A DNA stretch of 34,441 nt, from IMG/VR virus record IMGVR_UViG_3300009026_000031, positions 1 through 34,441 of that record, one strand, 5' to 3'. The number at the start of each line of letters is the position of its first letter. The first letter of the stretch is position 1. The position numbers were made by a program, and so were the translations under genes. The notes below the pieces were generated by a model. It made no database searches. It was not told where the DNA came from and saw nothing but the letters and a program-made list of their open reading frames with translations. This DNA comes from a virus. Shown piece by piece: positions 25,018 through 34,441 of the stretch.

Positions 25018-25332
25018 ATGTCAAAAAATCACTATGAGATGACGCAAGTAGCAAGTGCTAACTTGGAAATCAACTTTCTTCGAGATGAGGTAAGGAGATT
25101 AAAGATAGAATCTAAAGATTGCTCAAAAGCAAGGGAGTTACTCAAGCGTAATGGCTATTACGTTGACAGTCTATGGACTACGGGAGACGTCACGCAGAAC
25201 TACGAGTGTAGCGATGAGTTAGCGTATAAGGTGCTTGATAATGCGATGCACAATGAAGCTACTATGGAACAAATATTTTTAGCCATTGACGATATGTGTG
25301 ATTATTTAGAAATCAAAAAAATAAAAGACTAA
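25018..25332 (+). CDS. Unrecognised 104-aa protein
   Basis: N-terminal helical region (ASANLEINFLRDEVRRLKIE), then KARELLKRNGYYVDSLWTTG, a likely alpha/beta core. It recalls the small phage proteins with '...L...GY....LWt..Dv' that accompany replication genes. Its stop overlaps the next ATG (TAATG). Confidence 0.6.
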   Translation: MSKNHYEMTQVASANLEINFLRDEVRRLKIESKDCSKARELLKRNGYYVDSLWTTGDVTQNYECSDELAYKVLDNAMHNEATMEQIFLAIDDMCDYLEIKKIKD

Positions 25333-25520
25333 TGGGAAATAAAAAAATGCCAGCAGCTATTAAAAAAGAAGTTGATATGCACTTTTATATGCTCTATAAG
25401 TTCATGGAAGACTTTCAGAAAGAGCTAACAAAAGAGTACGAAGCTATTCCAAAAAGAAAAAAGAAATGTAGCTACGAACAATTCGTGGTTGCTATATTCA
25501 CTAATTTAATATTAAAATAA
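25332..25520 (+). CDS. 62-aa helical protein, paralogue of the 68-aa protein at 24665
   Basis: Shares the core 'lYxFMxxFxxxxxxEYxaIPxxxxxxSYEQFVVxxFxNxI' with the protein at 24665, but has a more basic centre (PKRKKKC). It overlaps the 104-aa gene by TAATG. Function unknown. Confidence 0.6.
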   Translation: MGNKKMPAAIKKEVDMHFYMLYKFMEDFQKELTKEYEAIPKRKKKCSYEQFVVAIFTNLILK

Positions 25521-25521
25521 A

Positions 25522-25743
25522 ATGGAAAATGTAATCAATGGCACGCCAAAAGCCACGTTCTACTTGAACGAATTAGCATCAGAGCTAACAGCACTAATAG
25601 TTGACAAGAAGTATGAGAATACTGGAGTTGCAACTATGGTAGAGAAAAGAGGTGTAATGATTTATCATGGGCATATTCAACACGAATATGATAATATCTA
25701 TGACGAAGTGTTTCAATATTTAGAATTAAATCAAATAAAATAA
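25522..25743 (+). CDS. Unrecognised 73-aa protein
   Basis: Small alpha/beta protein (KATFYLNELASELTALIVDK, then RGVMIYHGHIQHEYDNIYDE). It starts 2 nt after the preceding stop. No motif is recognised. Confidence 0.55.
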   Translation: MENVINGTPKATFYLNELASELTALIVDKKYENTGVATMVEKRGVMIYHGHIQHEYDNIYDEVFQYLELNQIK

Positions 25744-25750
25744 AATTGAA

Positions 25751-25840
25751 ATGTTAATTATATTAGGATATATTATAATAGCAGCACTAGCTGTGTTTGG
25801 CTTTATAGATATTATTAAACAAATAAACAAAATAAAATAA
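25751..25840 (+). CDS. 29-aa single-span membrane peptide
   Basis: It encodes LIILGYIIIAALAVFGFIDI and a short basic tail (KQINKIK), and fits exactly between its neighbours (stop 2 bases before the next ATG). It is similar in size and layout to the other membrane peptides of the array. Confidence 0.45.
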   Translation: MLIILGYIIIAALAVFGFIDIIKQINKIK

Positions 25841-25841
25841 A

Positions 25842-26138
25842 ATGGAAACTTACAATTTTTATTTAGACCAAAAGGTCTCAACTTGGATGAGAACTGATTT
25901 CGAGATTAAAGCTGAATCATATAGTAAAGCTGTCGTGCTTGCTAGAGAAAAAGCCAAAAGCGGAACGCTAGATGAAGAAGGGTGGAGCGAGGTTGATTTT
26001 ACGCAGGAATTATTATCCACCAAGGATAATGGCAATCAATCTACCGAAGAACTTTATTCTAGTATAAATAGCGAACTATTATATGATAATGCTAACGAGA
26101 AATTATGGGATAATACTAATCCTAATTATAATACTTAA
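25842..26138 (+). CDS. Unrecognised 98-aa protein
   Basis: Begins METYNFYLDQKVSTWMRTDF, with a beta-alpha pattern including FEIKAESYSKAVVLAREKAK, then an Asn/Ser-rich polar tail (about 60-98). This resembles the small phage family 'y.f.ldqK.t.W.r..f.ieaes.eeA....', whose role is unknown. Confidence 0.55.
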   Translation: METYNFYLDQKVSTWMRTDFEIKAESYSKAVVLAREKAKSGTLDEEGWSEVDFTQELLSTKDNGNQSTEELYSSINSELLYDNANEKLWDNTNPNYNT

Positions 26139-26140
26139 AA

Positions 26141-26160
26141 TATATTTGCTAAATTGCAAA
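26141..26160 (+). promoter_or_regulatory. Promoter box TATATTTG with overlapping inverted repeat
   Basis: TATATTTG (26141-26148) matches the Bacteroidota -7 element. TTTGC-TAAATT-GCAAA (26145-26160), a member of the wTTGy-N6-GCAAn family, overlaps its 3' half and the expected start site, a typical place for a repressor. It lies in the 53-nt gap before the 85-aa gene. Confidence 0.5.
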
Positions 26161-26191
26161 TTATTAATTAATTTTACAAACACAAAATACA

Positions 26192-26449
26192 ATGATTATG
26201 AACTACAAAGTACTAGGGCAGTTAAAGATTGAAGAATCCGGTGATCCGGATACTTACTCATATGAGTATAATGATATTAATCAAGCAGTAGATTTTTATC
26301 GTGACTGCTTTGTTAATATGGCAGAGGATATAGCTGATTTTGGTGGAAACTTTACCGTTACCTTATTGTCAATTGATGATAAGGAGCAGGTTACACTTCT
26401 TAAAAGGAATATTATAAGTACCACTATAAACGAGGTTAACCATGAGTAA
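26192..26449 (+). CDS. Unrecognised 85-aa protein
   Basis: A small acidic alpha/beta protein (QAVDFYRDCFVNMAEDIADF). ATG 26192 is taken; 26198 is an alternative. It overlaps the next gene by 8 nt, indicating coupling. First gene after the promoter-like site at 26141. Confidence 0.55.
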   Translation: MIMNYKVLGQLKIEESGDPDTYSYEYNDINQAVDFYRDCFVNMAEDIADFGGNFTVTLLSIDDKEQVTLLKRNIISTTINEVNHE

Positions 26450-26663
26450 AATAAAAAAGCTACAAATGGCTATAACGCTATTTGAACAAATTGATTACCT
26501 ATCTAATATAGATATGATTGGTATATTATACCATCAGAAAGTGCCAGAGGCGTATAAATTTAAGGAACGGCTAATTCTATTTAATTATAATGTAGATATC
26601 TATACTATAGACGAAACATATATAATAGATGTTAGGCACGTAGGAATATTCCAATTAATGTAA
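26442..26663 (+). CDS. Unrecognised 73-aa protein
   Basis: Helical start (KIKKLQMAITLFEQIDYLSN) followed by a small beta part (YNVDIYTIDETYIIDVRH). Overlaps its upstream neighbour by 8 nt. No family is recognised. Directly before the DnaA-like gene. Confidence 0.55.
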   Translation: MSKIKKLQMAITLFEQIDYLSNIDMIGILYHQKVPEAYKFKERLILFNYNVDIYTIDETYIIDVRHVGIFQLM

Positions 26664-26675
26664 AATCAATAAAAC

Positions 26676-27125
26676 ATGGAAGTAAGGAACTGCAATACAC
26701 CCCTATATAGGATGTATAAGTTACAAGTAAGGTACGTTAAGATATTAGAGAAACTATTAGAAGATTCTGGTATATCTCTATCAGAAAGTAAGAAGGTTAA
26801 AGTAAAGCTAATAAGTGTAACGTCAAGCATTACACCCGAAAAGATAATAGAGTTAGTAGAGGACGAATTCAAGTCTAGTGTACTAACAAGAAATAGGAGG
26901 GTAGTTACCACTAATGCTCGTAAGGCTTCTGCATTTTTGTTATCTAATTATGCTAAAGCTCCATTGGTAGATATAGCCCCATTGATAGGGTTAACGCATC
27001 ATACATCTGTCATGCATAATATTAGAGAATGCGAGGATTTAATGGAAACTGATTACGTCTATAATGGTAAGATGCAAACTATCATAAAAGATATTAAAAC
27101 ATATATTAAAAACATAAAACATTAA
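26676..27125 (+). CDS. DnaA domain IV-like DNA-binding protein, 149 aa
   Basis: Residues about 55-125 match the C-terminal DNA-binding domain of DnaA: SSVLTRNRRVVTTNARKAS, then AFLLSNYAKAPLVDIAPLIG, then LTHHTSVMHNIREC. The last segment corresponds to the DnaA signature '..G.rdHTTV.hA..ki' that contacts DnaA boxes. There is no AAA+ ATPase domain (149 aa against about 450 for DnaA). It could bind origin sequences, compete with host DnaA, or regulate transcription. It sits among replication genes and is followed 2 nt later by the DUF1599-like gene. Confidence 0.7.
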   Translation: MEVRNCNTPLYRMYKLQVRYVKILEKLLEDSGISLSESKKVKVKLISVTSSITPEKIIELVEDEFKSSVLTRNRRVVTTNARKASAFLLSNYAKAPLVDIAPLIGLTHHTSVMHNIRECEDLMETDYVYNGKMQTIIKDIKTYIKNIKH

Positions 27126-27127
27126 CA

Positions 27128-27514
27128 ATGGAGATAATTAAAAGATTTTTTAGGCAACCGCTACATTGCAAGGATGCTATAAAGTATGACCATGCTACAT
27201 TATCAGCAGAGGAAAGAGATATAATGCTAGACCATTTATTCTCTGAACAAAGAGATATCCTTACTAGAAAAGGACATGATTATGCGGGAGAAGATACGCT
27301 ATCTAATTTTAGATTAGCAGGGATGATAGCGAATCAGGGGTCAAGGCATCCTGATGCAACAAGCTGCCTTAATCTAATAAGTACAAAGGTAGCTAGGCTA
27401 GGGCAATTATTATCTAGCGGAAAAACTTCAGAGAATGAATCAGTCAAGGATTCGGCTATAGATTTATGTAATTACTCGGCATTACTTTATTTAATACTTA
27501 AAATGGAAAAATAG
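27128..27514 (+). CDS. DUF1599-like (nucleotide-modification-associated) protein, 128 aa
   Basis: Residues about 45-70, LTRKGHDYAGEDTLSNFRLA, match the 'kgheYag.ddvlanF' core of DUF1599-type proteins, which are often encoded near DNA-modification or nucleotide-pool genes in phages. The end SAIDLCNYSALLYLILK is an MazG-like 'D...Y..l' helix, so a nucleotide pyrophosphatase-type fold is plausible. It lies one small gene upstream of the cytosine methyltransferase. Confidence 0.6.
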   Translation: MEIIKRFFRQPLHCKDAIKYDHATLSAEERDIMLDHLFSEQRDILTRKGHDYAGEDTLSNFRLAGMIANQGSRHPDATSCLNLISTKVARLGQLLSSGKTSENESVKDSAIDLCNYSALLYLILKMEK

Positions 27515-27515
27515 T

Positions 27516-27692
27516 ATGGAAACATATATACCAATGGAAGATGTTATTGTTATGATTAAATACTCAAAGCATATAACACCCGAAGAGAGGATAAAGTACG
27601 AAGAAAGAATTAAATGGATTTATTCTAGTGATTTAGCCAAAGAAAAACTAAAGAAACCAATTATTAAAAACCAACAAAGAAAAAAACTATGA
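27516..27692 (+). CDS. 58-aa charged protein, unknown
   Basis: A short helical protein (METYIPMEDVIVMIKYSKHI, then basic KEKLKKP and NQQRKKL). Its start is 1 nt after the previous stop and its stop overlaps the methyltransferase ATG (ATGA), so it may couple translation of the methyltransferase. Confidence 0.55.
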   Translation: METYIPMEDVIVMIKYSKHITPEERIKYEERIKWIYSSDLAKEKLKKPIIKNQQRKKL

Positions 27693-28642
27693 CACATGGA
27701 TCGCTTTTCAGCGGAATAGGTGGATTCGATTTAGCATCCCATTGGATGGGGTGGGACAATAAGTTCCATTGCGAATGGAATCCATTTGGACAAAAAGTAC
27801 TTAAACATCATTTCCCAAAATCAATATCATACAATGACATCACAAAAACAAACTTTTCTATTCACGAAGGAAGTATTGACATCCTTACAGGGGGATTCCC
27901 TTGTCAACCATACTCAACAGCAGGAAAACGACTCGGGAAAGCCGATGAAAGACATCTCTTTCCTCAAATGCTACGAGCAATTAAGGAGATTAAACCGAGA
28001 TACATCGTTGGCGAGAATGTTCGTGGACTTGTTAGTTGGAACGGGGGGATGGTATTCAACGAGGTGTGCGATGACTTGGAAAGGGAAGGCTATGAAGTCC
28101 AACCGTTTCTTATTCCAGCTGCAAGTGTCAACGCCCCGCACCAAAGACAAAGAATCTGGTTTATTGCCTACTCCAATGGCATCGGAAGCGGACAAGGCGG
28201 GGATAGGGGACAAGCAGAACAGTTTGACAAGGATGGTAAAGAGGGGCTTATTACTCACCCCAACAACGAAAGAGGAGGTACAGGATTTAGTCAAGTTCAA
28301 GGCAAGAATGGAAAAATATCCGAATGGAACAACCATGCCGAATCTAGCAACACAAGTAATGCTTCAAACTCCACGAGCTTCGGACAAAAACATCCATTGG
28401 AAAACAGAGAATTGGAAGGGGGACGATTTAGGGAGTCAGATGAACGAAATTTTTGGGACTCGTTCCCATCTAAACCCCCTCTTTGTGGAGGAGATGATGG
28501 GATTCCCAGGGAATTGGACTCTATCTCCTTTCCTAAATGGAGAAACGAATCAATTAAAGCCTATGGAAATGCAGTAGTGCCTCAATTAGCCTTTGAGATT
28601 TTTAAGATAGTAGCAAAATTTGAAGAAAAATTAAAAAAATAA
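27689..28642 (+). CDS. DNA (cytosine-5) methyltransferase
   Basis: The 317-aa protein shows C5-methyltransferase motifs in order: I SLFSGIGGFDLA (5-16, AdoMet binding), IV GGFPCQPYSTAG (68-79, catalytic Cys72), VI GENVRG (108-113), VIII HQRQRIWF (151-158) and IX/X RNESIKAYGNAVVPQLA (about 287-303). The region between VIII and X, where the target recognition domain lies, is short and of low complexity (Gly/Asn/Ser-rich, e.g. ESSNTSNASNSTSFG). This entire stretch also encodes a second protein in the +1 frame. Base composition is clearly more GC-rich than that of neighbours, suggesting acquisition or dual coding constraint. The likely role is protection from restriction or regulation. Specificity cannot be predicted. 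Confidence 0.92.
   Translation: MTHGSLFSGIGGFDLASHWMGWDNKFHCEWNPFGQKVLKHHFPKSISYNDITKTNFSIHEGSIDILTGGFPCQPYSTAGKRLGKADERHLFPQMLRAIKEIKPRYIVGENVRGLVSWNGGMVFNEVCDDLEREGYEVQPFLIPAASVNAPHQRQRIWFIAYSNGIGSGQGGDRGQAEQFDKDGKEGLITHPNNERGGTGFSQVQGKNGKISEWNNHAESSNTSNASNSTSFGQKHPLENRELEGGRFRESDERNFWDSFPSKPPLCGGDDGIPRELDSISFPKWRNESIKAYGNAVVPQLAFEIFKIVAKFEEKLKK
27786..28577 (+). CDS. Embedded +1-frame protein within the methyltransferase gene
   Basis: A 263-codon frame, open from TTG 27786 (first ATG at 27834), lies wholly inside the methyltransferase gene in the +1 frame. Its product has a patterned sequence: SLARMFVDLLVGTGGWYSTR (74-93) and CAMTWKGKAMKSNRFLFQLQ (94-113), repeated 'LLPTP', 'LLLTPT' and 'MLQTPRASD' units (126, 155, 193), and an end LNPLFVEEMMGFPGNW (229-244) then TLSPF. 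I know this LNP.FVE.MMGFP..WT ending and the LLPTP repeats from hypothetical phage proteins encoded at or near methyltransferase genes. Length, motif content and the low complexity of the methyltransferase frame opposite suggest it is real. Translation start is uncertain. Function unknown. Confidence 0.6.
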   Translation: MDKKYLNIISQNQYHTMTSQKQTFLFTKEVLTSLQGDSLVNHTQQQENDSGKPMKDISFLKCYEQLRRLNRDTSLARMFVDLLVGTGGWYSTRCAMTWKGKAMKSNRFLFQLQVSTPRTKDKESGLLPTPMASEADKAGIGDKQNSLTRMVKRGLLLTPTTKEEVQDLVKFKARMEKYPNGTTMPNLATQVMLQTPRASDKNIHWKTENWKGDDLGSQMNEIFGTRSHLNPLFVEEMMGFPGNWTLSPFLNGETNQLKPMEMQ

Positions 28643-28645
28643 ATC

Positions 28646-28822
28646 ATGATAACAAAAAACAAAATTGAATTCATATGGGGAAGTATATTTAGTAACGATG
28701 ACGATGGCAGCTTACTGCTTGGCATAAGCGCTACAAATGGGTCATATATGCCTAATGACTACCCTATAGTGGCTATACAAATAGGAATTATTATACTCAA
28801 GCTAACTATTGTAATTAAATAA
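28646..28822 (+). CDS. 58-aa protein with hydrophobic C-terminus
   Basis: ATG at 28646 is 3 nt after the methyltransferase stop. The first 40 residues are polar (FIWGSIFSNDDDGSLLLGIS), followed by a hydrophobic stretch (IVAIQIGIIILKLTIVI). No family is recognised. The small-RNA promoter starts just after its stop codon. Confidence 0.5.
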   Translation: MITKNKIEFIWGSIFSNDDDGSLLLGISATNGSYMPNDYPIVAIQIGIIILKLTIVIK

Positions 28823-28824
28823 AA

Positions 28825-28855
28825 TTTGGTAGTATGAAAATACTTCGTACATTTG
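28825..28855 (+). promoter_or_regulatory. Bacteroidota-type promoter TTTG-N19-TACATTTG
   Basis: TTTG (28825-28828), exactly 19 nt, then TACATTTG (28848-28855) matches the -33/-7 consensus TTTG-N19-TAnnTTTG at every fixed position. Expected start is about 28861-28863, at the base of the small-RNA 5' hairpin. Confidence 0.85.
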
Positions 28856-28861
28856 TAATGC

Positions 28862-28961
28862 AAATCCGATAAGGTAGTGGAATTACATTTATCGGGTGTG
28901 TTTAAAGAACTAACCCTTCTTAGATCATGCCCATTAGAATTCCACTCTAGTGGGCTTTTTT
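28862..28961 (+). ncRNA. Approximately 100-nt small RNA with complementary hairpin loops
   Basis: The segment has its own ideal promoter and ends in a clear terminator, and it holds no convincing coding frame. The 5' stem ATCCGATAA (28864-28872) pairs with TTATCGGGT (28889-28897) over 9 bp. Its 16-nt loop contains GTGGAAT (28877-28883), fully complementary to the 7-nt terminator loop ATTCCAC (28939-28945), so the two hairpins can form a kissing-loop or pseudoknot. The linker carries GAACTAACCCTTCTTAG, unpaired in this model. It could be a regulatory RNA acting on host or phage messages. The exact 5' end is predicted, not measured. Confidence 0.7.
28929..28961 (+). terminator. Rho-independent terminator of the small RNA
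   Basis: GCCCATTAGA (28929-28938) pairs with TCTAGTGGGC (28946-28955) over 10 bp, loop ATTCCAC, followed by TTTTTT. The T-G wobble supports plus-strand RNA. Confidence 0.9.
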
Positions 28962-28969
28962 ATTGGGTA

Positions 28970-29262
28970 TCAGTCAAACCTATATGGCTGTTTGCAAGTC
29001 AAGGGGGCAGAAGCCCCACAGCTTAATGGATAAAGACTAAACATCTGATATTTATTCTTTTAAATGTATAGTATTCTTCTAGACTTGCGTAACTATACAG
29101 CCTCACTTACTGAACTCATTAACTCAGTTGTACGTGGTAAGAAATTGGTCTCTTGTGGGGGCAGGGGGCTGACTTCGTTTACCTTGCCTACTTAACCAAA
29201 TCTATCAATCTAGTTGTATTTTAATAATCATCAGCTGTGTCACACAGCTAAATTCTAAAACA
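28970..29262. other. Structured non-coding stretch after the small RNA
   Basis: About 290 nt without a supported gene contain several inverted repeats: GGGGC-AGAA-GCCCC (29004-29017), GCAAGTC (28994-29000) with GACTTGC (29082-29088), TGTATAGT (29066-29073) with ACTATACA (29092-29099), ACTGA-N10-TCAGT (29109-29128) and AGCTGTG-TCA-CACAGCT (29233-29249). Some are mutually exclusive. GCCCCACA (29013-29020) could also pair with TGTGGGG (29154-29160). It looks like a structured RNA or recombination site. No tRNA or known intron fits well. Confidence 0.45.
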
Positions 29263-29263
29263 T

Positions 29264-29374
29264 ATGTGGACTAAACAAGACATCAAAGATTTTATACTTT
29301 CAGTAGTATTACCATTTATATTTATAATAATACTTATGATTTATACTGATTTTATTAGGAAGGTATTTAAATAA
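29264..29374 (+). CDS. 36-aa single-span membrane peptide
   Basis: MWTKQDIKDF is followed by a hydrophobic helix (ILSVVLPFIFIIILMIYTDF) and a basic end (IRKVFK). It follows a 7-bp hairpin and precedes the ERF promoter-like site. Size and layout match the other tiny membrane peptides of the early region. Confidence 0.5.
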   Translation: MWTKQDIKDFILSVVLPFIFIIILMIYTDFIRKVFK

Positions 29375-29390
29375 ATTGTAATTTCGCAAT
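29375..29390. promoter_or_regulatory. Inverted repeat ATTGT-AATTTC-GCAAT before the recombination operon
   Basis: A member of the wTTGy-N6-GCAAn family. It contains TAATTTCG, a near match to the -7 box, and lies 19 nt before the ERF start. It is nearly identical to the site at 30988. Confidence 0.5.
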
Positions 29391-29409
29391 AACCAATAAA
29401 ACAAATAAT

Positions 29410-29982
29410 ATGAAAGCAATTTTAAAAGCTTTATCTGGATTCCAAATGGAATGCCCAGCGATTAAGAAGGGAGCGGATAATCCTTTCTTTAAATCAAAGT
29501 ATGCATCTCTTGATGCCATACAACACGTAGCTAACCCAAAACTTTTAAAGCATGGGCTAGTAGCGATTCAGCCTACTACATGGATAGATGGGCAATGTTT
29601 CGTCAGAACAATAGTATATCATGTGGATAGCGGTGAGTCTATTGAATCTTTATTCCCGGTAATAACGCAAAAAAATACAGCACAAGAGTATGGTAGCGCT
29701 GTAAGTTATGCTAAAAGGTATAGCTATACAGGGTTATTAAATATTATCGTGGATGATGGGAGTGATGACGATGGTAATGTAGCATCAGGAAATCAGGCAA
29801 CTATCACCAGTACAAAAACTCCTTCTAGTACTTTAGTATGGTTAGATGAAAAGCACGCTAAATGGAATGAAGTTGTAGATAAATTTAAAAATAATACAGT
29901 AGATGTTGCTACACTTAAAAAGTATTTTAAGTTATCCAAGGCTATAGAATTAAAATTAACATCATTAAAAAACCCTGCCTAA
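29410..29982 (+). CDS. erf: ERF-family single-strand annealing protein
   Basis: The sequence ALSGFQMECPAIKKGADNPF, then KSKYASLDAIQHVANPKLLK and AQEYGSAVSYAKRYSYTGLL with NIIVDDGSDDDGN match the core of the ERF superfamily (N-terminal '...k.g.Np.fkskYa.l..i' and 'G.a.tYarRY.l..llgi...dDdgn'). The protein ends with a short basic tail. ERF proteins anneal complementary single strands in phage recombination. A RecE-like exonuclease follows two genes later, making a RecE/RecT-type pair. The leader contains ACCAATAAAA. Confidence 0.92.
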   Translation: MKAILKALSGFQMECPAIKKGADNPFFKSKYASLDAIQHVANPKLLKHGLVAIQPTTWIDGQCFVRTIVYHVDSGESIESLFPVITQKNTAQEYGSAVSYAKRYSYTGLLNIIVDDGSDDDGNVASGNQATITSTKTPSSTLVWLDEKHAKWNEVVDKFKNNTVDVATLKKYFKLSKAIELKLTSLKNPA

Positions 29983-29983
29983 T

Positions 29984-30217
29984 ATGGAATATATATTAAA
30001 CAAAGAGAAAGAAGACTATAGGATTAATAGTATTAAATCATCTATAGATGTCCTATCTAATATTAGTCTTCCCAATGATATATCATTAGTTAAAATAGAA
30101 ATAGATGATATATTAAATAGCTTAATAAGAGCTATAGAAGGAGGCAATGAATTAACTATAGGTATCGTTATGGGTCAGGCTCTAGAAAAACTTAAAATTA
30201 TAAATAATAAATTATGA
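29984..30217 (+). CDS. Helical 77-aa protein in the recombination operon
   Basis: An acidic helical protein (KEKEDYRINSIKSSIDVLSN, then IEIDDILNSLIRAIEGGNEL). It lies 1 nt after ERF and overlaps the exonuclease by ATGA, so it is co-translated with both and may bridge or regulate them. No family is recognised. Confidence 0.6.
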   Translation: MEYILNKEKEDYRINSIKSSIDVLSNISLPNDISLVKIEIDDILNSLIRAIEGGNELTIGIVMGQALEKLKIINNKL

Positions 30218-30966
30218 TAACATTAGATAAATTAAAAGAAAGGCCATTGAGCTACAGCTCTCTAAAAGAGTTTTCCAAGTCGCCTGCGCATTATGTAGCC
30301 TACTTAAATAAAAAAGTAGAACCTACAAAAGAAATGCTATTTGGAAGTTTGGTTCATTGTATGCTGTTGACTCCTTCTATAGTTCTTAATAAATTCGCAG
30401 TAATGCCTAATATAGATAGAAGAACTACTATTGGAAAGCAAGCGTATGAAGATTTTACTAAACAATCAGAAGGGAAAGATGTAGTCACAGAACAAGATTA
30501 CGATGACGCTAATAATCTAATTAATAAGGTTATATCAAACCAAGCTATTGCAGAAGCTATACAAAATTGTGATTCATTTGAGAAGGAGTGGAGGTATGAA
30601 ATAAATGGATTACCTGTGCGTGGATTTTATGATGGGGTTGCAATCGACTATATATTAGAGGTTAAAACAACATCAGATGCTGAACCAAGAGCAATTACAG
30701 CTGACTTCTTTAAAAGGCAGTATCATATGCAAGCAGGCATGTATAATTATGTTTCTGGTAAGCCAATAAAATATATTATAATTGAAACAAAGTCCCCATA
30801 TAATTGCTACCTAGCAGATGCTGATGATGATTTTGTTAGTTTCGGTAAGATGAAAATAATAGAGTCTATTGATAAATTTAAGGAGTGTCTTGATATAGGC
30901 TTGTTTGATATGGGCTATGAATTCTACGGACATCTGAAAATAGGATTACCTGGATGGGTAAAATAG
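30214..30966 (+). CDS. PDDEXK exonuclease (RecE/exodeoxyribonuclease VIII-like)
   Basis: The start YSSLKEFSKSPAHYVAYLNK, then MLFGSLVHCMLLTP, is typical of exodeoxyribonuclease VIII PDDEXK-like nucleases. The active-site block is visible: GFYDGVAIDYILEVKTT (metal-binding Asp, then ExK at about 145-151) and FFKRQYHMQAGMYNYVSG (the conserved Q...QaamY helix). At 250 aa it is the compact phage form. It would resect DNA ends for the ERF protein. It overlaps the 77-aa gene by ATGA. Confidence 0.88.
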   Translation: MITLDKLKERPLSYSSLKEFSKSPAHYVAYLNKKVEPTKEMLFGSLVHCMLLTPSIVLNKFAVMPNIDRRTTIGKQAYEDFTKQSEGKDVVTEQDYDDANNLINKVISNQAIAEAIQNCDSFEKEWRYEINGLPVRGFYDGVAIDYILEVKTTSDAEPRAITADFFKRQYHMQAGMYNYVSGKPIKYIIIETKSPYNCYLADADDDFVSFGKMKIIESIDKFKECLDIGLFDMGYEFYGHLKIGLPGWVK

Positions 30967-30967
30967 A

Positions 30968-31003
30968 TTTTGTAATTAAATAAAAGTATTGTATATTCGC
31001 AAT
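30968..31003 (+). promoter_or_regulatory. Promoter TTTTG-N19-TATATTCG with overlapping inverted repeat
   Basis: TTG (30970-30972), exactly 19 nt, then TATATTCG (30992-30999), one base off TAnnTTTG. The inverted repeat ATTGT-ATATTC-GCAAT (30988-31003) covers the box, so a bound protein could block or aid RNA polymerase. Confidence 0.65.
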
Positions 31004-31032
31004 ATCATTTTTGTAAGAGTTGAGTAAAAAAG

Positions 31033-31056
31033 GGGGGTGTTGCATAGAGCATCCCC
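31033..31056 (+). other. 5' leader hairpin before the 120-aa gene
   Basis: GGGGGTGTT (31033-31041) pairs with AGCATCCCC (31048-31056), including two wobbles that pair only in plus-strand RNA, preceded by an A-run. No T-run follows, so it is a leader structure, not a plus-strand terminator. Confidence 0.5.
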
Positions 31057-31070
31057 TAACTTTATAAATT

Positions 31071-31433
31071 ATGGGCAGATACGATTCTTTTAAAATAAGC
31101 GCTACACTACTTCCTATGTCAAACGTAGAGGAGCTAGAAGACCTAACGGATCTTGAATTTCAGACAAAAGATTTAGATAGGGAATTTTTAACCTACGAAG
31201 TGAAAGAAGATGGGTTATTATACTATGAGGATTTTGAATACGAGATGAATGCAATCAATAATGATAATTCGTTATTTTCAGTAGAATTAAAAAAAATTAA
31301 CCAAGTAACCAAAAAAAGCTACCACACAGGAGATGTAGAATTTTATGGAAAGCCGTATGAAATATTTTATACATTTAAAGCACATTTCCATGATGGGAAA
31401 TTAGAATCCGTAATTTTTATTTCAAAAGAGTAG
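31071..31433 (+). CDS. Conserved phage protein of unknown role, 120 aa
   Basis: The pattern MGRYDSFKIS..., LEFQTKDLDREFLTYEVKED, GLLYYE belongs to a widespread phage family ('MGMFD.ik.......FQTKdL...l..y.I..dGrL'). Its function is not known. It is likely a beta-rich fold. It has its own promoter with an operator-like repeat and a structured leader, unusual for such a small gene here. Confidence 0.65.
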   Translation: MGRYDSFKISATLLPMSNVEELEDLTDLEFQTKDLDREFLTYEVKEDGLLYYEDFEYEMNAINNDNSLFSVELKKINQVTKKSYHTGDVEFYGKPYEIFYTFKAHFHDGKLESVIFISKE

Positions 31434-31456
31434 ATGGTATAAACCAATAAAACCAT

Positions 31457-31702
31457 ATGAACACAATAGCAAAGGGTATAACCAAAGCAAAATTAACAAA
31501 ATACTACCCTAAATTAGCAAAGATTGTAGATAATGTCTATGATATTAATAAAGAAGAACACTATTGGTTTTTCGTAAACTACTGCGGTAAATACAAAGAT
31601 AAACAAGGAAAACCAAGAACAGTTTCAATGGGAGCTATTATAGATGTAATTTCAAAGAATGGATACGATATAGATATTGTAGCAAAAAAAAGAATTATTT
31701 GA
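31457..31702 (+). CDS. Unrecognised 81-aa basic protein
   Basis: Lys/Tyr-rich (GITKAKLTKYYPKLAKIVDN, then YWFFVNYCGKYKDKQGKPRT). It has the leader ACCAATAAAA (31443-31452). A nucleic-acid-binding role is possible from composition only. Confidence 0.55.
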   Translation: MNTIAKGITKAKLTKYYPKLAKIVDNVYDINKEEHYWFFVNYCGKYKDKQGKPRTVSMGAIIDVISKNGYDIDIVAKKRII

Positions 31703-31720
31703 TATCCAATTCGGTCTAAA

Positions 31721-31757
31721 ACCCGCTACGTTTCTACGTTGGTGGGTAATTTTAAAT
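31721..31757 (+). terminator. Weak terminator-like hairpin
   Basis: ACCCGC (31721-31726) pairs with GTGGGT (31742-31747) across a 15-nt loop that contains the repeat CTACGTT twice (overlapping the stem), followed by a T-rich tract. The short stem and long loop make efficiency doubtful. Confidence 0.35.
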
Positions 31758-31782
31758 TTTTTAACCAATAAAATATACAAAC

Positions 31783-32076
31783 ATGGCAGAGGACAAAATT
31801 TACTTTAACTCGTTAAGAGGAAAAAAGGGGCAGTATTCAATAAAAGTAAGTGTTAACGTAGAAAAATTCATTGAGGAGCTTAAAGCTAATCAGAATGAAA
31901 AGGGATATGTTAACCTTGAATTGAAAGAAAGGAAGGAAGCCGATAAATTCGGTAATAATGTGTACGCAGTACTAGACACTTGGAAACCAACACAGTCTAA
32001 TGCTCCTGCACAATCTCCTGCACAAGCAACAAGCACCTCACTAGAACCAGCATTTAGCGATGACCTACCGTTCTAA
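31783..32076 (+). CDS. ssb: Single-stranded DNA-binding protein (SSB-like), 97 aa
   Basis: A short beta-rich domain (YFNSLRGKKGQYSIKVSVNV, then GYVNLELKERKE, NNVYAVLDTWKP) is followed by a Pro/Ala/Ser/Gln linker and the C-terminal tip FSDDLPF, the acidic 'DDxPF' tail by which SSBs recruit partner proteins. The domain is shorter than bacterial SSB (about 75 residues) but in line with phage types. Position between the recombination pair and helicase supports the role. Confidence 0.8.
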   Translation: MAEDKIYFNSLRGKKGQYSIKVSVNVEKFIEELKANQNEKGYVNLELKERKEADKFGNNVYAVLDTWKPTQSNAPAQSPAQATSTSLEPAFSDDLPF

Positions 32077-32086
32077 CTTTTCTTAC

Positions 32087-32118
32087 CCCCGTCTATAGAG
32101 ATGTAGGCGGGGTTTATT
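32087..32118 (+). terminator. Terminator-like hairpin after SSB
   Basis: CCCCGTCTA (32087-32095) pairs with TAGGCGGGG (32104-32112) over 9 bp, loop TAGAGATG, followed by TTTATT, a weak T-run. Partial termination before the helicase gene is likely. Confidence 0.65.
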
Positions 32119-32131
32119 AACTTTATTTTCT

Positions 32132-33949
32132 ATGCAAAAAATAACAATATTTAAAAATATATTAAATATTCATGAACCGGCTTTTGTTACAATAGAAAGC
32201 GTATTAAACGCTATTCAAAAAGGGAAGTATAAAGATAAGATAGACGCTATAAGGGCTTGTAAAGATAAAGACCAAGTAAGGTCATTAAAATCTAATCTTC
32301 CATGTGCATTATTTTCTGGCGAGTTCGCCAAACCAATTACAAAAAAATACGAGGATGGTAGGGAGTATATCTCTTATAGAGATGATAAATCATTAACATC
32401 TCATAGCGGGTTTGCGCCCATTGATATAGATGATATAGATAACATAAACTCTGTTAGAGAAGAGCTTATAAATAACCCTTATATATATGCGTTATGGCTG
32501 TCATCTAGCGGTAAGGGATTACATGGTCTTATTAGGATAGGAGATGGAAATAAGCACGTTCAGCACTACAAGGCATTGCTTGAAAAATTTAAAGGGCTAG
32601 ACCCAACAGCAAGAAACCCTTCTAGAGTACTATACTTATCATATGATCCTGATATTTATATTAATACATCATCTAGCACATTCTTTGATATCATACAAGA
32701 CGAAGATATAAAGGTATCTAGCATCCGTATTGGAGATGGATATACTGACTATAAAAAAATGGATGTAGCATCTAGAATGATTAGGCTTGCGCCAGACGGA
32801 CAAAAGCATCATATTTTATTAAAGGCGGCTCATTTATTGGGTGGTTATATAGCGACAAAGCATATTGAATACGATATGGCATTTGATATTCTTGTACATG
32901 AAATATCCAAGAAAAATGTTGATAGTATGAGTATCGCAAAAGATACTATAAATGATGGGTTAAGGCATGGCATGACAAAGCCTATATCGGAAATAGAAAT
33001 GGATTACAGGGAGGCTGTCAGAGATATCGGGGTTATGGAAGAAGATTTATCTTTTTTATCATCAAACTCAAAAGATGATGACTTTATATATAGATTTAGG
33101 GCAGGGCTAATCCCACTAGGGTTGTCATTTGGTTATTATAATCTAGACCAGCATCTTCGTCTCAAAGAGGGAGAGTTTTATGCTGCATTAGCTCATACAT
33201 CAGTTGGCAAAACAACTGTCAATTTATGGCTTATTTTTCTTTCTTCGGTACATTATAATTGGAATTGGATGATGTATATGGGTGAGAATAGTTCAGCATC
33301 AGTTAAGATGAAAATGATGGAGTTTTTTATAGGCAAGAGAATACAGCAAATGTCCGACCTAGAACATAATGTATCTTTAAAATTTATAGAAGAGCATTTT
33401 TCTATAATGTCAACCGACTGCATGTATACCTATGGGGATATACTAGACCACTCTAAAACACTTATGCAGTATAAGTCTCTAAAGGGAATATTTATAGACC
33501 CATATAACTCACTTAAAATGGAGTTAACAAACTCTAAAAATAAATATATATACGACTACGAGGCGTATACTAATATGTTAAATTATACAAGGAAGTATAA
33601 TACAACTATATTTTTATCAGTACACACTACTACCGAGGCTCAAAGAGATAGGGATAGAGATGGCAATCAAAGGATGCCTCACGCCTCGCAAGCGGAAGGT
33701 GGGTCAGTCTTATCTAATAAGGTAGATACCTTTATGACGTACCATAGGAAGATTAAGGATCCGGTAGAGTGGATGTGGACGGAAGTTTCTATTGATAAAG
33801 TAAGGAGCAGGGAAACTGGAGGCAAGCCAACTGTTAATGGGTCTCCTTGTAGATTAAGAATGAATAATGGTATAGAGTTCGTTGACGAGAACGGTTTATT
33901 GCCATTTAATAGAGAACAATTATTATTCAAACATAAATGCAGATTTTAA
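32132..33949 (+). CDS. Primase/helicase: VirE_N (BT4734-like) domain plus DnaB-like helicase
   Basis: Residues about 40-180 match the BT4734/VirE N-terminal domain of Bacteroidota elements: SNLPCALFSGEFAKP, HSGFAPIDIDDI, ALWLSSSGKGLHGLIRI and ARNPSRVLYLSYDP. That order resembles the primase-like (prim-pol type) domain of phages. The C-terminal half is a RecA/DnaB-type helicase: Walker A AHTSVGKT (about 354-361), Walker B GIFIDPYNSL (about 452-461), SVHTTTEAQRDRDRDGN (about 496-512) and ASQAEGGSVLSNKVDTFM (about 516-533, DnaB motif 4 region). It would unwind the fork and probably prime it. It starts 14 nt after the terminator-like hairpin. Confidence 0.88.
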   Translation: MQKITIFKNILNIHEPAFVTIESVLNAIQKGKYKDKIDAIRACKDKDQVRSLKSNLPCALFSGEFAKPITKKYEDGREYISYRDDKSLTSHSGFAPIDIDDIDNINSVREELINNPYIYALWLSSSGKGLHGLIRIGDGNKHVQHYKALLEKFKGLDPTARNPSRVLYLSYDPDIYINTSSSTFFDIIQDEDIKVSSIRIGDGYTDYKKMDVASRMIRLAPDGQKHHILLKAAHLLGGYIATKHIEYDMAFDILVHEISKKNVDSMSIAKDTINDGLRHGMTKPISEIEMDYREAVRDIGVMEEDLSFLSSNSKDDDFIYRFRAGLIPLGLSFGYYNLDQHLRLKEGEFYAALAHTSVGKTTVNLWLIFLSSVHYNWNWMMYMGENSSASVKMKMMEFFIGKRIQQMSDLEHNVSLKFIEEHFSIMSTDCMYTYGDILDHSKTLMQYKSLKGIFIDPYNSLKMELTNSKNKYIYDYEAYTNMLNYTRKYNTTIFLSVHTTTEAQRDRDRDGNQRMPHASQAEGGSVLSNKVDTFMTYHRKIKDPVEWMWTEVSIDKVRSRETGGKPTVNGSPCRLRMNNGIEFVDENGLLPFNREQLLFKHKCRF

Positions 33950-33950
33950 A

Positions 33951-34184
33951 ATGGGATATGAATTTATAAATGATTCAAGATTAACAATCTTAGCATATGA
34001 CTTATCTATTAAAGATATTAAGACTAGGAGAGCTAGTGTAGTTGAATTTAAAACTCTTAAAATTGCTCAACAAAAACTACTGATAGGACAAAATATTATT
34101 AAGAATGCAATAGTAAAAAAAACTAGAGTGTATTCTGAGGCATTAGGAAAAGAATACGCATTAAGAATAAAACCATTGAAATGA
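33951..34184 (+). CDS. Unrecognised 77-aa protein
   Basis: I start at ATG 33951, one base after the helicase stop. An upstream in-frame start at 33882 would overlap the helicase end by 68 nt. It is basic (KDIKTRRASVVEFKTLKIAQ) with an alpha/beta pattern. Its stop overlaps the next ATG (ATGA). Function unknown. Confidence 0.6.
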   Translation: MGYEFINDSRLTILAYDLSIKDIKTRRASVVEFKTLKIAQQKLLIGQNIIKNAIVKKTRVYSEALGKEYALRIKPLK

Positions 34185-34441
34185 TAATACAAACAATTCA
34201 TGAAATATTAAATCCTTTTGATGTAGAAACACCACTAGGATACGGAGTGGCAATCTTTTTAATTGGCGGGTCAATTCATTCTAATCCTCAATTTATGATT
34301 AGATTATATAATACAGGAGACATTAGAACAGTAGACCAGAATGATGTAAAAATATATGGCAATCCTACTACAGGAGAACCTTTAATACCTACTAATAAGC
34401 AATTTATAAAAGGTTTAAAAAATCACTTTGGACCTAAAAAA
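34181..34441 (+). CDS. Conserved small phage protein, partial at right edge
   Basis: The 87 visible codons (IHEILNPFDVETPLGYGVAI...) run off the window. The 'v.TP.G.G.ai......t.....v.l...G.i...d..Dv....N.T.g' pattern is shared by a common family of small phage proteins found near replication genes, with no known role. It is coupled to the 77-aa gene by ATGA. Confidence 0.6.
   Translation, partial: MIIQTIHEILNPFDVETPLGYGVAIFLIGGSIHSNPQFMIRLYNTGDIRTVDQNDVKIYGNPTTGEPLIPTNKQFIKGLKNHFGPKK

Follow-up and report, generated by a model that had tools for sequence, protein, structure and literature searches.

A small RNA element found in a viral contig and in many other uncultured viruses, unrelated ones among them, carries two hairpin loops, one in its 5' hairpin (L1) and one in its intrinsic terminator (L3), which pair in nature, as established by covariation in relatives; that the RNA family and the loop pairing are both real is, as a joint claim, very likely. 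The window, i.e. the whole stretch of DNA analysed here, is a 34.4-kb viral contig (IMG/VR record IMGVR_UViG_3300009026_000031, positions 1 to 34,441). Its terminase, portal and primase/helicase have distant kin in the Flavobacterium elemo phages, Cellulophaga phi38:1 and Maribacter phage Panino, and from what is generally known of those phages we take the window to be a crAss-like phage fragment. The element is flanked by a 58-aa ORF and by the gene of an Erf-type recombinase, and an unlisted 36-aa ORF with a hydrophobic stretch (MWTKQDIKDFILSVVLPFIFIIILMIYTDFIRKVFK) lies at 29264-29374, immediately ahead of the Erf gene. The parts of the element are as follows.

28825..28855, + strand: Bacteroidota-type promoter (TTTG at 28825-28828, 19 nt, TACATTTG at 28848-28855)
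about 28860-28863, + strand: predicted transcription start, from the promoter position
28864..28897, + strand: 5' hairpin P1, 9 bp (28864-28872/28889-28897) with one U.G, supported by fold and covariation
28874-28876/28884-28886, + strand: inner stem P1b, 3 bp, presenting exactly the 7-nt loop L1
28877..28883, + strand: 5' loop L1, GTGGAAT, fully complementary to the terminator loop, covarying with L3
28897..28929, + strand: middle hairpin P2, outer stem 28897-28903/28923-28929, outer-arm complementarity kept across RNAs
28905-28909/28917-28921, + strand: inner stem of P2, with loop CTAACCC
28929..28961, + strand: intrinsic terminator P3, 10 bp (28929-28938/28946-28955) with T6 at 28956-28961, supported by fold and covariation
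28939..28945, + strand: terminator loop L3, ATTCCAC, covarying with L1

Structure and covariation of the RNA

The window contains a single instance of the strict promoter pattern on the + strand and three on both strands together (0.31 expected), a similar promoter lies ahead of the RNA in most relatives, and the upstream TTTG-N19-TAnnTTTG that defines membership among small RNAs with a Bacteroidota promoter is present. These promoters suggest, by inference only, that the hosts of the viruses carrying the RNA are Bacteroidota. The folding energy of the 111-nt stretch is -32.9 kcal/mol, against -19.9 +/- 3.2 for shuffled sequences (z = -4.1; 0 of 200 shuffles as good), and P2 abuts P1 and P3 directly on either side. 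In the single-sequence minimum-energy fold of the window, some bases of the 5' loop are drawn into an inner stem, GUAGU/AUUAC, of which only GUA/UAC is conserved. A scan of the + strand for hairpins of at least 8 bp with loops of 6-8 nt returned terminator-like hairpins at three places, and only for this terminator does the reverse complement of the loop lie in the preceding 110 nt. An earlier sequence-only reading had proposed the promoter, a 9-bp 5' hairpin and a 10-bp terminator with T6, all of which held at the positions listed above, and had noted that ATTCCAC is the full 7-nt reverse complement of GTGGAAT, which also held and extends to 9 nt (AGTGGAATT/AATTCCACT). Its claim that such complementarity is unlikely by chance stands as well, given a sole case among the three terminator-like places, and is settled by the comparative evidence.

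Relatives were gathered through a primase/helicase search (24 loci), a scan of viral contigs for the pattern of the conserved 5' hairpin (50 stretches) and two more scans aimed at the stretches downstream of the RNA, which added further members. Among the primase/helicase relatives, the small RNA was readable by BLAST in 16, at about 71-85% DNA identity and with near-identical contigs of the same virus excluded; the adjacent Erf protein is only 26-57% identical. Because IMGVR_UViG_3300024346_001710 is 99.99% identical to window positions 25258-34441 over 9.2 kb, it belongs to the same virus and does not count as independent evidence, and a search for a close relative of the Erf gene found only a near-identical contig of the same virus. 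The collection comprises 49 distinct RNAs, all in uncultured viral contigs. When 18 phage contigs were searched in full with a covariance model made from 41 RNAs, each yielded one copy, and Panino yielded none; weak antisense matches of the model were dismissed as reverse-strand echoes of P1. Nucleotide searches of cultured phages with three members and two downstream stretches gave promoter-like or chance similarity or nothing. In 395 sampled Bacteroidota genomes the model search gave no convincing copy; nine genomes had weak matches (best E 1.5e-5), and the eight inspected were ordinary terminators without complementary loops. Pattern matches in genome contigs were rejected as chance, there being no terminator after them.

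For the covariation test, the terminator loop was defined from its own stem alone and its reverse complement was then sought in the 5' hairpin. Contiguous complementarity of 6-9 bases was present in 48 of the 49 distinct RNAs (seven bases in 34, eight or nine in 13, six in one), compared with about 3 complementary bases, mostly 2-4, when loops were swapped between different RNAs. About 28 different complementary loop sequences were represented, such as GTGGAAT, GTAAGAG, GTCGCAG, ATTACGG, TAAGCGG, GGTCAAG and ATGTGTC. The model alignment of 40 distinct RNAs contained double changes at all seven loop pairs, and the covariation score of the whole structure was 0.466, against 0.157 for shuffled and no more than 0.104 for slid controls. 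With 11 disjoint pairs of RNAs, chosen to limit shared ancestry and with at most about 12% difference outside the loops, all 24 loop differences in ten pairs were double and compensated, with none one-sided. The one exception throughout was L017 (GTGAAGT / ATTCCGC), in which 6 of 7 pairs are kept, two G-U included. This RNA, at L017:3949-4049, is the sole member with a mismatched loop pair and may represent an intermediate step in evolution, a recombination product or a chimeric assembly. A few unpaired-looking loop cells in alignments A1 and A3 were traced to a one-column shift of rows with a shorter P3 stem, the loops being fully complementary in the raw sequences.

Since complementarity is near-complete in all RNAs save one and is accompanied by compensated double changes, the loops pair in nature. 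The check proposed with the sequence-only reading, whether the loops of relatives covary or vary independently, thus came out strongly in support of pairing. Covariation of the loops cannot, however, separate pairing within one molecule from pairing between two, or from an alternative nested fold that would undo the terminator, so that of the kissing loop, pseudoknot or dimer originally suggested, the pairing itself held and its form was not distinguished.

The stems are likewise shown by comparison to be conserved as RNA. The base of P1, AUCCGA/UCGGGU, is almost invariant, its fixed U-G pair included, and across 40 distinct RNAs the upper P1 pairs and P1b covary, the latter as G-C/A-U. In P3, 99.7% of cells are paired, double changes occur at 6 of the 10 pairs (40 distinct RNAs), U.G pairs are found in 31 of 40 stems, and the T tract that follows is retained throughout the relatives. 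The outer arms of P2 start right after P1 and end right before P3, and remain complementary despite differing sequences (7.1 of 9 pairs within own RNAs versus 5.5 when swapped; best of 5000 shuffles, 6.2). An AACC(C) loop recurs in the middle hairpin of most short-linker members, and unrelated inserts of 40-66 nt replace that hairpin in several groups. A function in RNA rather than DNA is favored because G-U pairs on the + strand are fixed or common, and a loop-loop contact because both loops are held by conserved, covarying stems (P1b and P3).

For many members the single-sequence optimum is a nested rod rather than three hairpins. Both arms of the terminator then pair elsewhere, the 3' arm with the 5' end of the RNA and the 5' arm with the 3' arm of P1, and L1 pairs with L3. 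When each fold was enforced, with no bonus counted for kissing, the rod was on average 2.7 kcal/mol worse than the terminator form over 38 RNAs (range -6.3 to +8.5) and 6.3 kcal/mol worse in the window. The strands with two alternative partners are the invariant ones, so the extra antiterminator pairs have no covariation support, and those pairs are largely absent in L088-type RNAs. The two-partner strands make a terminator switch possible, a suggestion drawn from sequence alone.

Distribution, hypervariable loops and the downstream stretch

Comparison also shows that the RNA is a unit common to different phages. It is present in at least four clearly different gene contexts: beside Erf and near other genes in the crAss-like group, next to a 385-aa terminase of another type, beside an HK97-type capsid/portal/adaptor cluster, and after a gene of unknown type of roughly 1000-1200 aa; in L036/L060 it follows another set of genes. 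The gene downstream of it is not conserved among relatives. L088/L091-L093 and L125 have 5' hairpins of unrelated sequence with the same layout and the same loop-to-terminator complementarity, over 7 nt in the former and 11 nt in the latter.

Pairs of RNAs that differ by less than 5% outside the loops differ by 30% within them. L010 and L011, 98.1% identical over 11 kb, nevertheless differ at 8 of 14 loop positions, and L021/L022 (96.2%) and L052/L061 (94.0%) likewise differ in loop type; L008 and L011 (85%) have their loop type in common, and certain loop types recur across different phages. Diversifying selection, recombination of loop types and a relaxed constraint on pairing alone could each contribute to this diversity, and were not separated. 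The loop 7-mers have no excess of third copies in the rest of the contigs, where these would be possible targets (50 seen, 46.6 expected).

Wherever the sequence reaches far enough, nearly all relatives have another conserved stretch, of about 250-350 nt, that begins within a few tens of bases of the terminator and has the same orientation. In the window this stretch comprises:

28966..29222, + strand: conserved, probably structured non-coding stretch, from alignment and RNAalifold of 18 relatives
from 29060, + strand: alpha-type core, joined to a gamma-type front, with helix TGTATAGT 29065-29072 / ACTATACA 29092-29099

The downstream stretches were sorted by eye into alpha, beta, gamma and delta types, and these interchangeable types are what follows the RNA in the window (28966-29222) and in L008, L015, L029, L013 and L035. 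Many compensatory pairs support the alpha and beta stretches. The fold of the window taken alone is not significant (z -1.1), so that structure there rests on comparison. In scans with the cores of the alpha and beta types, every genuine copy with readable upstream sequence on its contig was preceded by the kissing RNA, and no promoter was seen in the gap between terminator and downstream stretch in relatives with sequence available. An Rfam search of the downstream stretches of the loci scanned gave no match, either to HEARO or to another known RNA. Several side observations concern these stretches. Alpha-type relatives carry a short direct repeat, its two copies flanking the last hairpin and its sequence varying between phages (AGTTGTA at 29126-29132 and 29212-29218 in the window). 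The small RNAs of L088, L091, L092, L093 and L125 precede beta or alpha stretches. In L112, a leucine-tRNA-like sequence is inserted between the terminator of the small RNA and the alpha stretch.

Comparison with known RNAs

No Rfam family matches the small RNA at gathering thresholds, in agreement with the initial impression that it belongs to no recognized family. The best Rfam score, 28.6 bits for the trpB motif (RF04312), is below the cut-off of 59 bits, and the context of that motif (before trpB or an amino-acid ABC transporter in Firmicutes/Fusobacteria) is not met either, the RNA lying in phage contigs beside Erf, terminase, capsid or unknown genes. The trpB and fhsA motifs are structured RNA candidates, and in fhsA a pseudoknot has been proposed between the terminator loop and the preceding hairpin (PMC11109978). 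Both resemble the phage RNA in having a 5' hairpin followed by an intrinsic terminator (PMC11109978), but they are leaders of metabolic genes in Firmicutes/Fusobacteria or Leptotrichia. Qrr RNA (RF00378) scored 20.0 bits against 50 bits and was rejected.

The closest parallels in layout are offered by plasmids. In pT181 attenuators, a kissing hairpin controls a terminator/antiterminator (PMC4878617). Like these Staphylococcus plasmid elements, the phage RNA places a 5' hairpin, which has interior loops and an apical loop for kissing, ahead of an intrinsic terminator (PMC4878617); the terminator downstream of the kissing hairpin is present as sequence and conserved structure only. The pT181 attenuators also alternate between terminated and read-through folds (PMC4878617); for the phage RNA a fold that undoes the terminator is a prediction only, the nested rod being the less stable form on average and in the window. 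In pT181, however, the hairpin kisses an antisense RNA made from the complementary strand, whereas in the phage RNA it pairs with the loop of its own terminator. A search for an antisense promoter found one weak minus-strand -7 motif in the window, at 28982-28975; the matching site of gamma-type relatives does not fit the motif, and no conservation of a pT181-like antisense promoter was seen across relatives (both by eye). The 7-nt loops of ColE1 RNA I and RNA II are fully complementary over their whole length and vary under a complementarity constraint. The loops described here are similarly 7 nt long, fully complementary and variable, but the two ColE1 RNAs come from opposite strands and are complementary automatically, whereas the phage loops, 55 nt apart on one strand, must co-change.

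Among phage RNAs, phi29 prohead (packaging) RNA is of similar size and also has two mutually complementary loops (PMC7357161); it differs in its 4-bp pairing, in forming a protein-bound ring on the portal and in having no terminator loop, and no sequence or Rfam covariance model match to a phi29-type prohead RNA was found in the window or the relatives scanned. P1/P7 C4 antisense RNA and P4 CI RNA are derived from leaders, pair with their own transcript, terminate it early and do so with phage-specific pairing; C4 antisense RNA is cited in PMC2864571. By analogy, the RNA described here may likewise be a leader-derived phage RNA pairing with its own transcript, but fold and target layout differ, there is no evidence of immunity, and no entry for C4 antisense RNA (RF01695) appeared within 28840-28980 at E values as permissive as 10. 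The phage RNAs ROOL and GOLLD, which frequently lie near tRNA islands, assemble via intermolecular contacts including kissing loops (PMC12286853). They share with the present RNA a phage-borne structure without known protein partner, kissing contacts and proximity to tRNAs (PMC12286853), but are much larger single RNAs, and their Rfam covariance models matched nothing in the window or loci scanned. The parts of the RNA thus resemble pT181, ColE1-type loops, phi29 pRNA and C4/CI RNAs, and the tests made place it in none of these groups.

Proposed mechanism and rival explanations

The mechanism that we prefer, although we would not wager on it outright, is a phage leader with a terminator under loop control; here transcription, termination and regulation, as well as the direction of the latter, are all inferred. 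In this view, a phage-encoded leader RNA of about 100 nt would start at the Bacteroidota-type promoter, fold into the three abutting hairpins P1, P2 and P3 and end at the intrinsic terminator P3. The P1 loop would pair with the P3 loop, probably first as a 7-bp kissing complex, and this contact would set the share of polymerase stopping at P3 versus reading on into the large downstream structured RNA. Pairing may either lock the terminated three-hairpin form or nucleate strand exchange into the terminator-undoing nested rod; the sequences allow both. The mechanism is favored by its two-state potential, the folds being 2.7 kcal/mol apart on average, and by the T tract found after P3 throughout. 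Against it, with no conserved gene downstream, only the structured stretch, itself of unknown function, would be left to regulate, and there are no transcript data; a purely intramolecular contact does not explain loop hypervariability, though neutral drift is not excluded; and the nested form is 6.3 kcal/mol worse in the window, and L017 breaks one loop pair.

A leader or attenuator is preferred over a free-standing small RNA because the structured stretch follows nearly always, with no promoter seen between them; judged from sequence alone, the leader role is at least as likely. The claim of a 100-nt small RNA thus held in part, since the RNA may not be free-standing, and of the two roles first put forward for the pairing, control of termination and presentation of a linker, both remain candidates, with the former preferred by inference. 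The free-standing alternative, a trans-acting small RNA, remains possible. Here the kissing loops would lock P1 to P3 and protect both ends, the P2 loop (CTAACCC / AACCC) or the linker would be presented to a target, and the downstream stretch would be a separate element. Its own promoter and terminator, the compact three-hairpin fold, the recurrent AACC(C) loop of most short-linker members and the placement of the unit beside different genes in different phages are in its favor. Against it, the replacement of P2 by unrelated 40-66 nt inserts in several groups means that no single seed is conserved, and the downstream stretch is almost always present.

Allele-specific action in trans, as autoregulation or superinfection immunity, is unlikely, ranking slightly ahead of intermolecular assembly. 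The terminated RNA of a resident or sister phage would loop-pair with nascent leaders of the same type and force the same outcome on them, ignoring other types. The loops do change faster than all around them, some types recur in different phages, and there are precedents in pT181 (PMC4878617) and in plasmid antisense systems, where compatibility can hinge on a single loop base (PMC10724649). Every RNA, however, has its partner in cis, which should outcompete one in trans, and neutral drift under a pairing-only constraint would also yield variable loops. If true, this reading would amount to a phage self/non-self code in RNA, each phage bearing one of many loop types of 6-11 nt; such a code, serving dosage control or superinfection immunity, would drive paired loops to diversify yet stay complementary, and the loops would behave as plasmid incompatibility determinants do.

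Pairing between L1 of one copy and L3 of another, giving dimers or rings, is also unlikely. Two different, mutually complementary loops correspond to the open head-to-tail arrangement of phi29 pRNA (PMC7357161), ROOL and GOLLD provide a precedent (PMC12286853) and a tRNA-like sequence adjoins the unit in L112; but the abutting hairpins and linkers of about 29 nt or more allow an intramolecular contact, which ordinary concentrations would favor, one partner is a terminator hairpin, and no Rfam match was found in the window or loci scanned. That the inverted repeat acts in DNA as a recombination or replication site, its RNA structure being incidental, is very unlikely: inverted repeats are common at such sites and the region adjoins recombination genes in the window, but G.U pairs (A.C on the other strand) are fixed or common, a promoter precedes and a T tract follows, and the neighbors differ between phages.

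These results add an RNA family absent from Rfam and common to different uncultured phages, in which one partner in a loop pair that changes fast yet stays strictly complementary is the loop of the terminator itself. With this family, control of transcription termination by loop-loop contact, or else RNA-based specificity among phages, can be put to a clean test, and attention is drawn to several large structured RNAs, likewise without Rfam match, that travel with the small RNA.
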